The notes below the pieces were generated by a model. The model saw nothing but the letters and a program-made list of their open reading frames with translations. It was not told the origin of the DNA and searched no databases. A stretch of 63,179 bases of DNA, from NCBI GenBank assembly GCA_021787615.1, contig JAJYLP010000008.1, positions 1-63,179 on the forward strand, read 5' to 3'. This document shows, one piece after another, positions 966 through 46,262 of this stretch. A program made the translations under genes and the position numbers. Position 1 is the stretch's first letter. The number at the start of each line of letters is the position of its first letter. The DNA is from Pseudomonadota bacterium. GTDB lineage: Bacteria > Pseudomonadota > Gammaproteobacteria > Steroidobacterales > Steroidobacteraceae.

Positions 966-1615
966 CTACTTCGGCTTTGCTGCTTTTCTCGCCTTTCGCT
1001 TCGCGACAATGCCGCGTGCATGCGGCGCAGGAATCGATTGCGGCCTGCGCTGTTCGAGCAGCTTTTCGAATTCCGTCGGCAGATCCAGCAGGTCAGCGGC
1101 GGCGGCGAACTCGCGGATGAACTGGCTCACGCGCGCGACATTCGCATCCGGAAACACATCGAGGAGCCCTTCGATATCGCGCAACTCCTGTGGCCGATGG
1201 GCGATCGCCTTCATGATGAGCAGATCCTCGACCTCGGGTAAACGCACCCGCACGCCGGCAAATTCGTGCTGCCTGGCGCGGGATACTGCGTCGGCTTCGA
1301 AGGGAAGTGCGCCGAGGATCACATCGAGATCGATAGCAGACTCAGTGTGTCGAAGCAGCAGTACGCGCGTGCGGCGAGCGAACTGAAGCGGATTCTCGAT
1401 GCGCGGGCAGATGCCGTGAGCTTCGGCCGATGCGAGCAGCCGGCTCCACTGCTGCTCGGGTGCGACAGCGAGTGCAGATCGCGCGTCGCTCGCGGCCGAC
1501 CCAGGATCGATGCCGCAATGCCGCCGACAAGCATCGCGGGCACGCCGGCAGCCTCCAGCCATTCTCTCAGATCGGCAAGCGCACTGAGAAAGAGCTGCGG
1601 AACGCGCTCCGTCAC
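966..1615 (-). pseudogene. AbiEii-like nucleotidyltransferase, frameshifted at the catalytic motif
   Basis: A GTG at 1615 opens a frame with the nucleotidyltransferase signature: LVGGIAASILGRPRATRD, the GG...R-T-D start of a minimal nucleotidyltransferase active site. Right after the first Asp (codon 1480-1478) the frame is lost. The similarity resumes in another frame as ALAVAPEQQWSRLLAS, then SAIDLDVILG (third acidic position) and the family-typical LPEVEDLLIMKAIAHRPQ and RDIEGLL, ending at 966 in a lysine-rich tail. Only two bases separate the GAT codon from the resumed frame, so a 4-base deletion (or a 1-base loss) removed the second catalytic Asp. The GTG overlaps the stop of the upstream 76-aa ORF (GTGA), implying coupled translation. 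Without the lesion the protein would be about 215 aa. Related AbiEii-type enzymes serve as toxins or antiphage enzymes; that role here is inference. A sequencing error is the alternative explanation. Confidence 0.65.
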
Positions 1616-1842
1616 GCAAGCGCCTGACGGATGAGCCGCCAGCGTTCACGGACTTGTGCTAGTCCAGCCTCCCGCTGCGGATCGTTCTCAAAAAGTACCG
1701 CCGCGCTGATGAGTGACGATAGCTGGCGGAGCTTCAGCTCCGCTGGCGTGCGGCGAAGCTCCTCGATCTCGAACGCACTCGCGAGCTTGAGGCCGGCGAG
1801 ATACGCCCGAGCGTCTGTGCGGGATCCGCTTCGTACCGTCAT
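1612..1842 (-). CDS. Hypothetical small protein coupled to the nucleotidyltransferase gene
   Basis: This 76-residue ORF has a soluble, helix-prone composition (DARAYLAGLKLASAFEIEEL, then a RERWRLIRQAL tail). I do not recognise the family. Its TGA stop overlaps the GTG of the nucleotidyltransferase by 4 bp on the same strand, the arrangement expected of a two-gene unit such as a toxin-antitoxin or NTase-partner pair. The start is the ATG at 1842; no strong Shine-Dalgarno sequence is visible. The coupling is seen in the sequence; any antitoxin or partner role is inference. If the downstream gene is dead, this may be an orphan. Confidence 0.5.
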   Translation of the reverse strand: MTVRSGSRTDARAYLAGLKLASAFEIEELRRTPAELKLRQLSSLISAAVLFENDPQREAGLAQVRERWRLIRQALA

Positions 1843-2292
1843 TTCGTCGTTGCTCGTGTGGATTGACCGACGTCCCTATTGGTTAATTTTACCACGACCT
1901 TGCTTGGGACGGCTGAAGGGCCGCCTGTGGGCTGCAATTTCGGCGGGATATCCGCTGTGTGTGCAGGCGCAGTCGTCCGGTGTGGGTTAATTTCGTGCAC
2001 CGAAGGCGAGGGCGCGGAGCGTCTGAAACAGTCAGACCGGGCGGCCAAGTTGCGGGGGCGTCCGCGCAATTGCGGTACATCCAGGTCCAAGGGATCTGCG
2101 ACGCGCTCGGGACGCGCGCAGGTGCAATTCAATGCCGCAACTCACTCAGAGTCCGCTCGTGTGCTGCGGCCGCCGATGCGGGGGCGGACACGGTGGATCC
2201 TGATCGACTGGTTCTCCGCGCGCGCCCGTTTAAACATGACTGCTGCACCCAATGGCTCAAGACTAGGAATTCGACCGCAGCACCTCCGTAGG
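1843..2292. other. Intergenic stretch with no supported gene
   Basis: About 450 bp separate the small ORF from the first copy of the dusA-like 17-mer. Frames on both strands are open by composition only, and none shows a recognisable domain. A GGTTAATTT 9-mer occurs twice (near 1879 and 1985). I see no integrase or transposase remnant here. Confidence 0.4.
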
Positions 2293-2309
2293 CCCCATGA
2301 TGGACTGGA
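2293..2309 (+). repeat. Direct repeat copy 1, putative attachment site (dusA 5' motif)
   Basis: CCCCATGATGGACTGGA is identical to 3313-3329 inside dusA. The frame around it reads S-V-G-P-M-M-D-W, mimicking the S-I-A-P-M-M-D-W of DusA, but it has an in-frame TAG upstream at 2264 and no start codon, so it looks like a displaced 5' end of dusA. Integrases that target the 5' end of dusA are a described family. Reading this copy as the outer att half-site is inference. Confidence 0.65.
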
Positions 2310-2459
2310 GGAGCGATGAGGAGTGCAACACGAAAAGCCCAAGCGTACGGGTTGCGGAGAAATCATGTCTCCTTGTTGGCTCCCGCTGTGGGTTGGTTGC
2401 GAGCGCGGCCCGCGCCCGATGCCGGGGGTGAGGGGGCCGCCCGGGCCGGCGCGCGAGCT

Positions 2460-2478
2460 TGTTCCCGAAATGGGAACA
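2460..2478. promoter_or_regulatory. Palindromic operator upstream of higBA
   Basis: TGTTCCCGAAATGGGAACA is a perfect 7-bp inverted repeat around a 5-bp centre, 16 bp before the higB start codon. Type II antitoxins of the HigA family bind such palindromes and repress their own operon. Its position over the promoter/leader of this pair fits that role. The palindrome is seen in the sequence; binding is inferred. Confidence 0.65.
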
Positions 2479-2494
2479 TGCTAAGCTTTCGCGC

Positions 2495-2836
2495 ATGAGG
2501 ATTATTGCCCGGCGCACGCTCCAGAGGCGCGTGCATTCTCGGTCCGGGCGCTCGGGTCGCGCGGTACTCAAGGCGTCTCTGGAGGCTTGGTTTGACGAAG
2601 TGCGCCGGGCCAAATGGACGGGTATGGCGGCCATCAAGCGGCTCTTCCGGACGGCACGCGTTGTGTCGCCAGATCGGATCGTCTTTGACGTCAAGGGAAA
2701 TGATTACCGCCTCGTGACCGCAGTTGATTTCGAGAAGCAGATCGTATGGATAAAGTGGATTGGTACGCATGCGGAATATGACCGCATTGACCTGAACACG
2801 ATCGCACATGAAAGAACTGAAGCCGATTCGAAGTGA
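2495..2836 (+). CDS. higB: HigB-family mRNA interferase toxin
   Basis: The 113-residue product has the HigB layout: an N-terminal MRIIARRTL strand, a basic helix (LEAWFDEVRRAKW), then the beta core with DRIVFDVKGNDYRLV, VDFEKQIVWIKWIGTHAEYD and a terminal R-I-D-L motif. HigB toxins are ribosome-dependent endoribonucleases of the RelE superfamily that cut mRNA during translation. The ATG at 2495 is preferred over the ATG at 2459 because it gives the family-typical N-terminus and lies downstream of the operator palindrome. The toxin-first order and the 29-bp overlap with the antitoxin are typical of higBA. No frameshift or lost core residue is apparent, so the module looks intact. It lies between two copies of a dusA motif and was probably delivered by a mobile element. 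Confidence 0.85.
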   Translation: MRIIARRTLQRRVHSRSGRSGRAVLKASLEAWFDEVRRAKWTGMAAIKRLFRTARVVSPDRIVFDVKGNDYRLVTAVDFEKQIVWIKWIGTHAEYDRIDLNTIAHERTEADSK

Positions 2837-3185
2837 GCGGGATTACGAGCGGGCCCTGGCGGAGGTCGCAAGTCTTTGGGGGGCGAAAGCGGGCACGGCA
2901 GAAGGGGATCGTCTGGATATTCTGGCGACGCTGATCGCAGCCTACGAGGCCGTGCATTACCCGATTGACCCGCCCGACCCGATCGAGGCGATCAAGTTTC
3001 GTATGCAACAGCAGGGTCTGACGCGCAAAGACTTGGCCGGTATCCTTGGGACCCGAACTCGCGTCTCGGAAGTGCTTAACCGTAAACGCGGCCTGTCGAT
3101 CAAGATGATCCGCGGCCTGCATGCGAGACTCGGCATCTCGGCGGAAATCTTGATTCGACCTGGCTGCGCGCCCAGGACCCCGTAA
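2808..3185 (+). CDS. higA: HigA-family antitoxin with XRE-type helix-turn-helix
   Basis: This 125-residue protein is the partner of HigB. The N-terminal half (about 1-65) is the acidic, helical toxin-neutralising part, including the family-typical YEAVHYPIDPPDPIEAI stretch. The C-terminal half is an XRE helix-turn-helix: FRMQQQGLTRKDLAGILG, then a recognition helix in RTRVSEVLNRKRGLS, then a final IRGLHARLGISAEIL helix. It neutralises HigB and should repress the operon by binding the TGTTCCC palindrome at 2460-2478. The ATG at 2808 lies inside higB, so the two are probably translationally coupled. The last nine residues (PGCAPRTP region) look like run-on sequence. Confidence 0.85.
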   Translation: MKELKPIRSERDYERALAEVASLWGAKAGTAEGDRLDILATLIAAYEAVHYPIDPPDPIEAIKFRMQQQGLTRKDLAGILGTRTRVSEVLNRKRGLSIKMIRGLHARLGISAEILIRPGCAPRTP

Positions 3186-3286
3186 GCGGCGGAACCATCG
3201 CATGTTACGGATGGCGCCTGCGCAGGCGGTGGCGCAACGATTGGATTTCGCGAGTGGCCTGTTCGCGCGTGGGTGACTCTTCTACG

Positions 3287-4318
3287 ATGTTAGACCGCAC
3301 AATCTCCATCGCCCCCATGATGGACTGGACCGACCGGCACTGCCGGTACTTCCTGCGGGGGTTCTCGCCGCAGACGCTCCTCTACACGGAAATGATCAGC
3401 GCGGCGGCCATCACCCGCGGTGATGCCGCGCGCCTGCTTGCCTTCGACCCGGAAGAGCATCCGCTCGCACTGCAGCTCGGCGGTAGCGAACCGCGGGAGC
3501 TCGCCGCGGCGGCGCGCCTGGGCGAGGCGGCCGGCTACGATGAGATCAATCTCAATTGCGGCTGCCCGAGCGAGCGGGTGGCGAGCGGCGCCTTCGGCGC
3601 CTGCCTGATGCGCGAGCCGCAGCGGGTCGCGCAGTGTGTCGCGGCGATGAGCGCGGCCGTGCGGGTGCCGGTGACGGTGAAGATGCGCATCGGCGTGGTG
3701 CGCGGGGCGCATCGGGAGATGGCCGGGGCGCTCGAGCGCTTCGACGAGGCGGATTTCGAGGCGCTGCACGAGTTCGTGGCGCTGTGCCGCGAAGCCGGCT
3801 GCCGGGTGGCCATCGTGCATGCGCGCAAGGCGGTGCTCGGCGGGCTCTCGCCGAAGGCCAACCGGGAGGTGCCGCCGCTGCGCTACGAGGTGGTGCGCCG
3901 CCTGAAGGGCGCCTTCGCCGATCTGCCGGTCGTGGTGAACGGCGGCTTCCGCACCGCCAATGCGGCCCTCGAGGCGTTGAGCTGGTGCGATGGCGTGATG
4001 CTCGGCCGCGAGGCCTATCATCGCCCGGCGCTGCTCGAGGAGCTCAACCGCGCGCTGCGGCCGGGATCGACTCCGGTCTCCCGCGAGGCGCTGCTCGAGC
4101 GGATGGCTCGCTATGCCGAGAAGCGCCTCGCCGAGGGCCATTCTCTCGGCAGCATCACCCGGCACATGCTGGGGCTGTATGCCGGCGAACCGGGGGCTCG
4201 GGAGTACCGGCGGCTGATGAGCGAGGGGGCGCGCGCCAGCGGGGCGGACGCGGGCCTGATCCGGCGGGCCGCCGCAGTGGCGCGGCCGATGGCGTTGCCC
4301 CGCATGTCCATGGTGTGA
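3287..4318 (+). CDS. dusA: tRNA-dihydrouridine(20/20a) synthase DusA
   Basis: FMN-dependent NADPH oxidoreductase that reduces uridines 20/20a in the D-loop of tRNA. The 343-aa product starts MLDRTISIAPMMDWTDRHCR, with the DusA N-terminal P-M-M-D-W-T motif. It continues with LYTEMISAAAI, an LALQLGGSEP strand, the catalytic-cysteine region NLNCGCPSERV, the substrate/FMN lysine segment VTVKMRIGV, HARKAVLGGLSPK and NGGF. The start at 3287 is chosen because the family motif follows at once; upstream GTG codons exist (for example 3254), so it is not certain. Codons 10-14 contain the second copy of the 17-bp repeat, a known type of integration site. The element has left the coding frame intact. Confidence 0.93.
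   Translation: MLDRTISIAPMMDWTDRHCRYFLRGFSPQTLLYTEMISAAAITRGDAARLLAFDPEEHPLALQLGGSEPRELAAAARLGEAAGYDEINLNCGCPSERVASGAFGACLMREPQRVAQCVAAMSAAVRVPVTVKMRIGVVRGAHREMAGALERFDEADFEALHEFVALCREAGCRVAIVHARKAVLGGLSPKANREVPPLRYEVVRRLKGAFADLPVVVNGGFRTANAALEALSWCDGVMLGREAYHRPALLEELNRALRPGSTPVSREALLERMARYAEKRLAEGHSLGSITRHMLGLYAGEPGAREYRRLMSEGARASGADAGLIRRAAAVARPMALPRMSMV
3313..3329 (+). repeat. Direct repeat copy 2, putative attachment site inside dusA
   Basis: CCCCATGATGGACTGGA, identical to 2293-2309, spans DusA codons 10-14. Start-to-start distance to the first copy is 1020 bp, and the interval holds only higBA. The flanking bases are only partly similar (7 of 12 upstream), so the identity is confined to the core expected of a site-specific recombination site. 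Confidence 0.65.
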
Positions 4319-4418: not shown

Positions 4419-5336
4419 TTGACCGCCCAAACGACGGGTAAGGACGTCGAAGTTGCCGTACTGTTCGCGGACGTCGTCGGTTCAACCCGGCTCTACGAGC
4501 GCATGGGCGAGCAGCGGGCGCGCGACATGGTGGCGCTGTGCATCGATGTGATGCGGTCGGCCACCGAGCAGTACCGCGGCACGGTCATCAAGACCATGGG
4601 CGATGAGATCATGGCGACCTTCCCGAGCGCCGATGAGGCGCTGAACGCCGCCGCCCAGATGCAGAAGCAGATCGGCGCGAGCGCGCAGCTGCGCGTCGAC
4701 GGCCAGCCGGTCTCGATCCGCGTCGGCTGCCATTTCGGGCCGGTGGTGGTCGAGAGCCAGGACGTGTTCGGCTCGACCGTGCATACCGCCAACCGCATGA
4801 CCAGCCAGGCCAAGGCCGGCCAGATCATCACCACCGAGGCGACGGTGGGGCAACTCACCGGCCAGTGGCGCTCGGCCTGCCGTCTGATCGACAGCGCGCC
4901 GATCAAGGGCCAGCGCAACGAGGTGCCGCTCTACGAGGTGCTCTGGCAGGCCGAGGACGTCACCAGCATGGTGCGCACCGTGGGGCACGAGGCGGACCGC
5001 TCGTACTGCACGCGATTGCGCCTGTGGTGGCTCGATCAGGAGCTGCTGATCGACGAGCAGCGCCCGATCCTCACCATCGGCCGGGCGGACGAGAACGATC
5101 TGGTGGTCAAGGGCAATCTGGTCTCGCGGCTGCATGCGCGCATCGAGTTCGCGCGCCACAAGTTCACGCTGATCGACCACAGCACCAACGGCACGTTCGT
5201 GCGCGAGAGCAACGGCGAGGAGTCCTTCGTGCGCCGCGACTCGCTGCAGCTGAAGGGCGGCGGCATGATCAGCCTCGGGCGCATCCCCGAGGGCGAGTCC
5301 GCCCAGACGATCCGCTTCGTCTGCGAGCGCGACTAG
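4419..5336 (+). CDS. Class III nucleotidyl cyclase with C-terminal FHA domain
   Basis: The 305-aa protein joins a class III adenylate/guanylate cyclase catalytic domain (about residues 8-180) to an FHA phosphopeptide-binding domain (about 205-300). Metal-binding Asp residues are present: D18 in LFADVVGST and D62 in KTMGDEIMATF, with K58 in the usual adenine-selecting position. The FHA domain shows ILTIGRADEND, VSRLHARIEF and STNGTFV, the G-R, S-R-x-H and N-G-T signatures. In the motif usually written V-N-x-A-A-R, this protein has VHTANRM (121-127): the transition-state Asn is His, while the Arg (R126) is kept. No transmembrane segment or signal peptide is visible, so it should be cytosolic. 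The TTG start is supported by GGGGAGG just upstream. A likely job is making cAMP/cGMP under control of a phospho-threonine partner, but which nucleotide, and whether it is active, is open. Confidence 0.85.
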   Translation: MTAQTTGKDVEVAVLFADVVGSTRLYERMGEQRARDMVALCIDVMRSATEQYRGTVIKTMGDEIMATFPSADEALNAAAQMQKQIGASAQLRVDGQPVSIRVGCHFGPVVVESQDVFGSTVHTANRMTSQAKAGQIITTEATVGQLTGQWRSACRLIDSAPIKGQRNEVPLYEVLWQAEDVTSMVRTVGHEADRSYCTRLRLWWLDQELLIDEQRPILTIGRADENDLVVKGNLVSRLHARIEFARHKFTLIDHSTNGTFVRESNGEESFVRRDSLQLKGGGMISLGRIPEGESAQTIRFVCERD

Positions 5337-14814: not shown

Positions 14815-15114
14815 TCAATCAAAGAGCGCCTTGAGGTAGTGATATCCCTCGGCGAGCGCCCGATGCCCTTTTGCGGTGGCAGTGTCGCGCCGCTGACGTC
14901 CGACTCCGCTGGCGCGCTCGCGCAGATAGCCTCCCTCGGTGAGCCGATGCCGCAGAGGATAGAGCGTTCCGGGGCTCATGCCGTAGCGGTGCCGGCGGAA
15001 CTCTTCGATGAGGCCGAGCCCGTAGATGTCCTCTTCGGATGCGTGATGCGGCACGTGCCGCTGAATCAGGCCACCCCAGAGCTCACGATGACGGCCTCGC
15101 GCGCGCACGGGCAT
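14815..15114 (-). CDS. Short PadR-family transcriptional regulator
   Basis: The 99-aa product matches a minimal PadR winged helix: ELWGGLIQRHVPHHASEED, YGLGLIEEFRRHRYGMSPGT, then LYPLRHRLTEGGYLRER and a wing with GRQRRDTATAKGHRALAE. It lacks the C-terminal dimerisation extension of longer PadR proteins, which is normal for the short subfamily. PadR proteins are usually repressors of transporter or detoxification genes. Here the downstream gene is dapE, 237 bp away with its own promoter, and the cupredoxin fragment is divergent; no target is evident. The sequence has drifted at conserved sites (for example RHVPHHAS), so partial decay is possible. Confidence 0.7.
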   Translation of the reverse strand: MPVRARGRHRELWGGLIQRHVPHHASEEDIYGLGLIEEFRRHRYGMSPGTLYPLRHRLTEGGYLRERASGVGRQRRDTATAKGHRALAEGYHYLKALFD

Positions 15115-15179
15115 CGCGGTTAGCTTATCAGACCCGCGATGCTGCAGCGCACGCGCGCAATGCTGCTCAGAACGTGAAC

Positions 15180-15389
15180 ATGATGCGGATCAGCCCGAGG
15201 AGGGCGGCGCGTGTGTCGCCCCCGCCGAGATGCGGCCCGTCCTCGGGGTCCGGCTCGACGGTCCCGCCGTGCGAGGCATCGCTCCTTCGTGTTCGATTTC
15301 CGCCGCCGGGGCGGTACACGTTCCGCTGCACCGTGCACGAGCCGGAGATGCAGGGTCAGATCATGGTGGCGCCGGCGGCCTCAAACTGA
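15180..15389 (+). pseudogene. Cupredoxin C-terminal fragment
   Basis: The last half of this frame reads VRFPPPGRYTFRCTVHEPEM, followed by QGQIMV. This is the terminal copper-binding loop of a plastocyanin/azurin-type cupredoxin, with the Cys-x2-His and downstream Met ligands and a G-Q-I final strand. The upstream sequence, which should carry the first His ligand and the N-terminal strands, is not recognisable. It instead overlaps low-similarity sequence next to the PadR gene. I read it as a 5'-deleted or frameshifted remnant. The ATG at 15180 is only a convenient boundary. Confidence 0.5.
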
Positions 15390-44867: not shown

Positions 44868-46262
44868 TTGAGCGCCGCGAACCGACGGCGAGCAGGGGCA
44901 GGGCGGGCGTTCTGCGGCGAACGGCTCATCGAGCACCTGCAGGGGCTGCTGCCGCAGTTCCCGCACGTGAGCCTGTGCGTCGCCTTCAGCGGCGGAGTTG
45001 ACTCAACCGCGCTGCTCGCCTCGCTCGCGCGCGTGCGCGGGCGCACCTTCGGGCTGCGCGCCGCGCATATCGATCATGGACTGCATCCGGACTCCGCGCT
45101 GTGGAGCCGCCAGTGCCGCCAGCTCGCGCGGCGCCTCGGCGTTCCGCTGCGCGTGGTGCGCATCGCCGTGGCGCAGCCGCCGGGCGCCTCGCTCGAGGAA
45201 GCCGCGCGCAGCGCGCGCTATGGCGCGCTCCGGGCGCTGCTGAAGCCCGGCGAGACGCTGCTCACGGCGCACAACCAGGACGACCAGCTCGAGACGGTGC
45301 TGCTGCAGCTGTTTCGCGGCTGCGGCCTAGCGGGGCTCGCGGCCATGCCGCCGGCGGCGCCCTTCGGCCGCACGCTGCTCGTGCGCCCGCTACTGGGCTT
45401 CAGCCGCGCACAGCTCGCCGCCTGGGTCGAGGCCGAGGGCCTGCCGGTGGTGGTGGACGCCACCAATGCCGATGAGCGCTTCGACCGCAATTACCTGCGC
45501 CGCCAAGTGCTCCCCGCGGTGCGCTCACGCTGGAGCGGGGTGGCCGCGGCGGTAGCGCGCACGGCGCGCCACGCCGCCGAGGGCCAACAGCTGCTCGAAA
45601 CGCTGGCGCGCGCCGACGTCGAGCGGGCAAGCGACGGGGCGGCGCTGTCGGTGAGGGCGTTGCGGCTTCTGCCGCCGCCGCGGCGGCGCAATGCGCTGCG
45701 GTTCTGGATCGCAAGCGGCGCGCACACGCTGCCCGATGCCCGCCGTCTCGAGCAGATCGCAGGCCCCGTGCTCGAGGCGCGCCCGGATGCCCATCCGCAC
45801 GTGGCCTGGGGCACGGCGCGCATCGAGCGTCATGCCGACCGGCTCTCGATCGAGCGGGCCGCGCCGCACGCGCAGTGCTCGGTGCCGGCCGGGGAGATCC
45901 TCTGGGCGGTGAGCGCATCGCCGCGCTGCGCGCTGCCCGAGGGGTGCGGCGAGCTCGAGCTGCGTGCCGATCCGCTCGGCCCGCTCGACCTCGATGGGCT
46001 CGGCGCGGCCGTGACGGTGCGCTGGCGCCGCGGCGGGGAGCGCCTGCGGCTGCGTCCGGGTGGCGCGCGCCGCGCGCTGAAGAGCCTGCTGCAGGAGGCG
46101 CGTGTGCCGCCGGCCGAGCGCTCGCGCCTGCCGCTGCTGTTCCGCGACGGCGAGCTCGTTGCCGTGGCGGACCTATGGCTCGGGGCGAGCGTGCGCGCGC
46201 AGCGCGCGTCGCGCCGGCGCGCGCGGCTCATCTGGAAGAAGCCGCCCCGCCCGATGCGCTGA
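44868..46262 (+). CDS. tilS: tRNA(Ile)-lysidine synthase
   Basis: Converts C34 of the CAU tRNA-Ile to lysidine. The 464-aa product has the PP-loop LCVAFSGGVDSTALL, then AAHIDHGLHPDS, LLTAHNQDDQLETVLLQLFR-type motif (LLTAHNQDDQLET), and NADERFDRNYLRRQVLP, followed by the C-terminal substrate-binding and TilS-C domains (RWRRGGERLRLRPGG, KSLLQEARVPPAERSRLPLL). The TTG at 44868 with GGAG upstream is the best start; the longer open frame reaches back into accA. TTG starts recur in this genome (tsaB, the cyclase). Confidence 0.93.
   Translation: MSAANRRRAGAGRAFCGERLIEHLQGLLPQFPHVSLCVAFSGGVDSTALLASLARVRGRTFGLRAAHIDHGLHPDSALWSRQCRQLARRLGVPLRVVRIAVAQPPGASLEEAARSARYGALRALLKPGETLLTAHNQDDQLETVLLQLFRGCGLAGLAAMPPAAPFGRTLLVRPLLGFSRAQLAAWVEAEGLPVVVDATNADERFDRNYLRRQVLPAVRSRWSGVAAAVARTARHAAEGQQLLETLARADVERASDGAALSVRALRLLPPPRRRNALRFWIASGAHTLPDARRLEQIAGPVLEARPDAHPHVAWGTARIERHADRLSIERAAPHAQCSVPAGEILWAVSASPRCALPEGCGELELRADPLGPLDLDGLGAAVTVRWRRGGERLRLRPGGARRALKSLLQEARVPPAERSRLPLLFRDGELVAVADLWLGASVRAQRASRRRARLIWKKPPRPMR

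Follow-up and report, generated by a model that had tools for sequence, protein, structure and literature searches.

A predicted HigBA toxin-antitoxin unit between two dusA starts, probably the eroded remainder of a dusA island

The interval 2293-3329 of a 63,179-nucleotide stretch of DNA from a member of the Steroidobacteraceae (the window, to which all coordinates refer unless stated otherwise) is probably the eroded remainder of an island brought in by a dusA integrase, now reduced to one attachment end and a predicted higBA pair. A preliminary description of this DNA had offered two readings, either the scar left by a dusA island of which the toxin-antitoxin module remains or a very small mobilisable unit. 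The insertion on which both depend is well supported by a displaced dusA start, an arm-like repeat at the offset usual in the genus, low G+C and parallel units in relatives; between the two, the evidence leans to the scar, because neither a right arm nor a piece of an integrase was found in the window or in four parallel toxin-antitoxin units.

The dusA gene, encoding tRNA dihydrouridine synthase A (3287-4318, plus strand), was assigned with NF008774 (E 2e-134, searched with the frame from 3254), the ATG at 3287 being our choice of start. On the forward strand, CCCCATGATGGACTGGA occurs exactly at both 2293-2309 and 3313-3329, as had been described, with the inner copy forming dusA codons 10-14 counted from ATG 3287 (MLDRTISIAPMMDW); no further match with up to two mismatches was found in the 176 contigs of the host assembly. 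By its alignment, the 17-mer is the core of a longer repeat of the dusA start, in which the 40 nt at 2270-2309 and at 3290-3329 (both plus strand) pair without gaps at 83% identity. The outer copy, read here as the displaced dusA start and left attachment site, lies 1,020 bp upstream of the inner copy, the present dusA start and right attachment site. It has kept the frame of the dusA start, where it translates as DRSTSVGPMMDW (dusA counterpart DRTISIAPMMDW), and has lost its start codon.

To score such copies, a 44-bp core profile was built from 46 dusA starts, 42 from the genus (including the window's inner start) and 4 from other families of the order; outer copies were kept out of its training, and 19 retrieved stretches in which no dusA start matched strictly were set aside. 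The outer copy reached 28.7, against a reverse-strand null maximum of 1.06 over 1,827,517 positions. It is this likeness to a dusA start, rather than the bare 17-mer repeat, that identifies the displaced start, since the window sequence is 70% GC and contains 16 direct repeat pairs of at least 17 bases, the dusA pair included, which makes the repeat alone weak evidence. Those pairs would be the argument for a 17-mer present by coincidence in unrelated sequence; given the profile score and an arm repeat at the expected offset, we rejected such a chance occurrence, which can hardly be credited. The outer copy is thus a displaced dusA start, as had been suggested, and the 17-mer does not belong to an unrelated conserved gene, a finding that had been named in advance as one that would speak against the island. 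A tRNA-type insertion site was also set aside, the sole tRNA found in the window being at 45639.

The repeat at the expected offset is a GTCTCC-type direct repeat at 2365-2385 (plus strand). It lies 71 bp away from the outer core and probably serves an integrase as an arm site. In 10 of 12 genus units, a direct repeat of the form GTCTCC-TTTAY-GTCTCC begins 70-72 bp inside the outer core, and in three larger units it recurs at -148 from dusA (scores 18.9-31.8), with the integrase genes, where seen, beginning just outside this right arm on the opposite strand. The repeats are probably a pair of integrase arm sites; the right-hand one is present in some single-core loci too. The arm model was trained on nine units, among them the four parallel toxin-antitoxin units and excluding the window, so that independence from the model holds for the window's left score and for the right-side scores alone. 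Position 2365 ranked first of all window positions on both strands (13.0; runner-up 11.65), at the low end of the range of the nine training units when each was left out (9.5-34.3). Reversed core and arm patterns, used as controls, gave no match in all 58 genus genomes.

Between the core copies lie only higB and higA, two open frames with a 29-nt overlap, which bears out the description of an intact HigBA pair with nothing else. higB (2495-2836, plus strand), encoding a predicted HigB-type toxin, matched PF09907 (E 1e-27, searched with the frame from 2459), and higA (2808-3185, plus strand), encoding a predicted HTH antitoxin, matched HTH_3 (E 6e-6); the higB start at ATG 2495 is our choice, the listed open frame beginning with TTG at 2459. 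Against solved structures, the higB product gave a weak match to HigB 5ifg (E 5e-4) and the higA product a match to HigA 5ycl (E 6e-5). Immediately 5' of higB lies an inverted repeat (2456-2482; arms 2456-2466 and 2472-2482, 91% complementary), a possible operator. With a PF09907 toxin gene first, an overlapping HTH antitoxin gene second, a predicted single operon and an inverted repeat upstream, the pair has the layout of HigBA systems and is classed as one by prediction from sequence, its similarity to the solved members being weak. The unit has a G+C of 60.9%, lower than all 286 1-kb steps past position 5000, and a GC3 of 66-70% compared with 90% in dusA. A scan of 2200-3400 gave no promoter-like or terminator-like site, so nothing visible parts dusA from the higBA transcript.

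HigB also matched the phage-defence model PD-Lambda-2_A (E 2e-31), and HigA matched the PD-Lambda-2 B model over positions 1-119 of 402 only. PD-Lambda-2 phage defence has a full-length B protein and a third gene. This identity was rejected, the B match being partial and no third gene lying between higA and dusA.

An ancestral neighbourhood of higBA and dusA was rejected as well. HigB-family matches occurred in 22 of 58 genus genomes, and the window's was the only one to share a contig with a found dusA core, a comparison limited by contig breaks and with G033 and G074 being without a core. Among the PF09907 loci of the genus, seen as short stretches, a dusA core or arm repeat was present only at the window's own. 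In a sample of the class, HigB relatives at E up to 1e-20 were found in 6 of 369 genomes, the host included, the others being 39-49% identical. The arrangement that had been proposed as evidence against an insertion, higBA beside an unrepeated dusA in relatives, was therefore not encountered among the HigB-family matches of the genus.

As to the integrase, the interval had been described as having none, and the five PF00589 matches in the host all lie on contigs other than the window's, which has no such match. No integrase remnant was found in the window unit (best E 0.5), and none was seen in the four parallel toxin-antitoxin units. The dusA integrase of the L041 type was found in 6 of 58 genus genomes and is absent from the host assembly. 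Cis-mobilizable elements (CIMEs) keep their attachment sites, have lost the integrase and are mobilised by a neighbouring or helper element. The window unit likewise has flanking attachment sites without an integrase, and the units described here resemble CIMEs and island accretion in kept attachment sites, lost integrase and tandem stacking at one site. They are unlike CIMEs in that a right arm was not found, which speaks against mobilisation, and in that the cargo is a toxin-antitoxin pair and little else.

Most relatives in the genus are draft assemblies, with varying lengths upstream of dusA. After three loci repeating already-counted contigs were dropped, 33 of 43 genus dusA loci had at least 1.5 kb upstream; extra dusA-start cores were present in 10 of these 33, giving 12 units of 353, 1020, 1167, 1244, 1270, 1399, 4567, 6261, 11215, 13254, 13543 and 15653 bp. 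Five units, of 1,020-1,399 bp, contain a predicted toxin-antitoxin pair and little else, on the dusA strand: the HigBA unit of the window (1020 bp; PF09907 and HTH_3), a predicted VapBC pair in G032, an AbrB-like gene with a DUF6036 nucleotidyltransferase in G062 and in G060 (only predicted to be a toxin-antitoxin pair), and, in G064, a HigB2-type toxin, its HTH partner and one more small frame that matched no family. The left arm is present in all five, and the right arm was found in none (best scores -7.1 to -0.2). The 353-bp unit of G063, also without a right arm, keeps a piece of an integrase start (E 6e-7), from which it follows that erosion at the dusA site happens; the 4,567-bp unit of G026 has no right arm and contains a small PF00589 protein (E 4e-19). 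The ~13-kb units of G030 and G080, in which the left arm is missing, represent a different kind of event, since their extra core lies inside a dusA piece or gene copy. Beyond the genus, an extra core was found in 4 of 60 loci, the nearest 6.6 kb off, as counted with a core profile trained mainly on the genus. With a stricter exact core pattern, one that fails to detect the outer copy in the window, 88 of the order's 196 genomes gave a match, and a single same-contig pair, 18.9 kb apart, turned up outside the genus. Predicted toxin-antitoxin pairs are the remaining content of 5 of 6 units below 2 kb, which suggests that they may be the last cargo to be lost from dusA islands.

Several further features of these loci were observed. 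A small frame ending in PHDYYW, without Pfam match, follows toxin-antitoxin pairs at dusA in G064 and G027 (L178, reverse complement, 2746-3060; L124, 5244-5525), and what remains of such a frame is seen in G034 (L135, reverse complement, near -131 of dusA). In L178 (reverse complement, 15100-15260), an arm repeat at 15220 appears by eye to be preceded by a decayed core ~71 bp before, and the G064 array may hold one further boundary. One class of dusA upstream ends has a palindrome, GGTCCAGT-ACTGGACC, that adjoins the core ~70 bp upstream of dusA (L033 and L131, reverse complement, by eye). An ATPase-like frame on the minus strand adjoins dusA in G036 and G070 (L131 and L186, reverse complements, about -330 to -1565 of dusA; by eye), with a different ATPase-like frame in G080; no integrase matching the right ends of G007, G036, G005 and G070 was identified. 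In G063 (L034, 8363-8622), the AbrB-DUF6036 left end looks by eye joined, within the arm repeat, to sequence resembling a right arm, as though by recombination between two arms. A second dusA gene in G080 and G032, or a dusA 5' piece in G030, lies 13-41 kb upstream of dusA (L195, 320-1333; G032:C53:84721-85758; L113, reverse complement, near 4069).

In the case of the parallel VapBC unit, insertion is shown by an unoccupied site in a relative: the outer flank of the G032 unit matches the flank directly abutting dusA in G067 at 82.9% over 416 bp, through the core, and the G026 flank at 78.6% over 387 bp. The comparison with relatives lacking the insertion, suggested in the preliminary description, thus succeeded for the VapBC unit; for the window unit, with 11 first-look candidates scored per genome, no unoccupied site was found. 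Window positions 1936-2292 had no match beside dusA in any relative, and 1840-1935 match G003. Further out, a nucleotidyltransferase gene and a small partner (966-1842, minus strand) look broken by eye. A homologous nucleotidyltransferase pair lies near a single-core dusA, with no higBA, in G024, and G080, G024 and, in part, G076 have relatives of the nucleotidyltransferase on the same strand, 5' of dusA, while a remnant was found in G003.

The age of the insertion can be approached through G008, whose dusA is 95% identical and in which the 36 nt to the left of the inner core show no difference before the sequences diverge. Either the insertion is older than the separation of the two lineages, or the start they share arose in some other way; the former is the simplest account and fits the decayed outer start and arm. 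By eye, the divergence point is near a transposase-like frame.

Instead of site-specific insertion, a duplication of the dusA 5' end, or homologous recombination there, might have produced the second start, with higBA arriving separately. A repeat as short and imperfect as this one would suit that account, and duplication does also occur in the genus, as the near-whole second dusA of G080 and the dusA 5' piece of G030, ~13 kb upstream and without arm repeat, indicate. We nevertheless consider it very unlikely here, as the repeat stops at the att core, the arm repeat stands at the island offset, the unit is low in G+C and the parallel VapBC unit has a clean empty site.

The likeliest alternative is a non-autonomous cassette, a toxin-antitoxin pair with attachment ends moved in trans by the dusA integrase of another element, so that dusA would collect such cassettes in arrays, somewhat like an integron. 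The units fall into the narrow size class of 1,020-1,399 bp, those other than the window's represent three dissimilar toxin families, the first gene stands 139-201 bp from the core on the dusA strand in all five (start codons chosen by us), and small units occur in tandem with larger ones in G062 and G064. The AbrB-DUF6036 units are moreover at odds with host relationships: G062 and G063 are 96.9% identical in the unit, 87.2% in dusA and 91.9-95.4% downstream, compared with 83.9%, 96.1% and 92.6-95.6% for G034 and G063 and 84.2%, 85.4% and 92.4% for G034 and G062, while G060 differs from the other carriers (unit 74-76%, downstream about 83%). This discordance could, however, reflect faster decay; the nucleotidyltransferase match of G034 breaks off at residue 176 of 208, in a copy that has no bounding core. 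Tyrosine-integrase attP sites normally require a right arm, and it is missing from all five units. The L041-type integrase is lacking in the host, although a helper of another type is possible among the five other PF00589 proteins of the host, and none of the 60 loci beyond the genus, scored with the genus-trained profile, has a unit below 2 kb. On balance, we regard the cassette as unlikely.

A broader version, in which the dusA start of the genus is an integron-like dock for ~1-kb integrase-less toxin-antitoxin cassettes that use integrases from other elements, seems to us quite unlikely; the cassettes would be inserted one behind another, each giving dusA a new start and promoter. The superintegron of Vibrio cholerae contains toxin-antitoxin cassettes. 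The units at dusA are like these in being stand-alone toxin-antitoxin pairs between recombination sites, and the G064 toxin matches solved HigB-2 chains (E 1e-21); unlike the superintegron, the recombination repeats here are dusA starts.

Under the favoured reading, the eroded island, a dusA-targeting tyrosine integrase would have inserted an island into the dusA 5' end, recombination at the core pushing the old start outward and giving dusA a new one; two dusA starts are present, the outer decayed, and the origin of the inner one we infer from this step. A later deletion, which we deduce from the missing integrase and right arm, would have extended from just past higA to just upstream of dusA and removed both, a loss that would leave the unit unable to integrate alone. 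That no integrase remnant was seen in the window unit or the four parallel units counts against this reading. The dusA-side end would have been retained because dusA needs it, and higBA because leftover toxin would poison cells losing the pair; read-through from higBA into dusA, were it to occur, would be a further tie between the pair and its site. As the putative cause of higBA persistence we favour retention by addiction, and the G063 unit, as an example that a unit can lose everything, counts against it.

That integrases use the dusA 5' end had been stated beforehand and agrees with known dusA islands and with the integrases beside dusA in some of the larger genus units. The described dusA-specific genomic islands and prophages comprise 94 islands of 4,758 to 184,808 bp, which share an integrase, were discovered through its homologues, and move the old dusA start aside while bringing a replacement (Farrugia et al., 2015; PMC4482086). 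The window unit has in common with them the dusA 5' site and the direct-repeat attachment sites, and may likewise have given dusA its new start. These islands bear an integrase, as some of the larger genus units do, whereas the small units measure 1.0-1.4 kb and have none; with no dusA-type integrase and 1,020 bp, the window unit falls outside the described range of 4.8-185 kb. The words "toxin" and "tandem" do not appear in the main text of PMC4482086. In Vibrio, dusA islands related to Salmonella Genomic Island 1 have 21-bp imperfect repeats, and several carry toxin-antitoxin systems, including higAB, which that study takes to aid stability (PMC8409611). They share with the window unit the dusA target and the higAB/higBA cargo, but are described there as larger and mobilizable. 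They encode an integrase of their own as well as transfer genes, and their toxin-antitoxin pair is one item in a large cargo. Islands at dusA, some with higAB, are thus already known; in the literature searched, mainly open-access, no report of integrase-less units this small, or of integrase-less toxin-antitoxin units at dusA, was found.

It has long been asked whether toxin-antitoxin pairs on chromosomes keep the surrounding DNA from being lost. One site across one genus here amounts to a series of repeated natural trials, in which islands enter dusA and some lose the integrase and right end. Since the left end of the units can be recognised, both surveys and bench work could test the pattern, which further suggests that the smallest class of dusA island would escape searches that start from the integrase.
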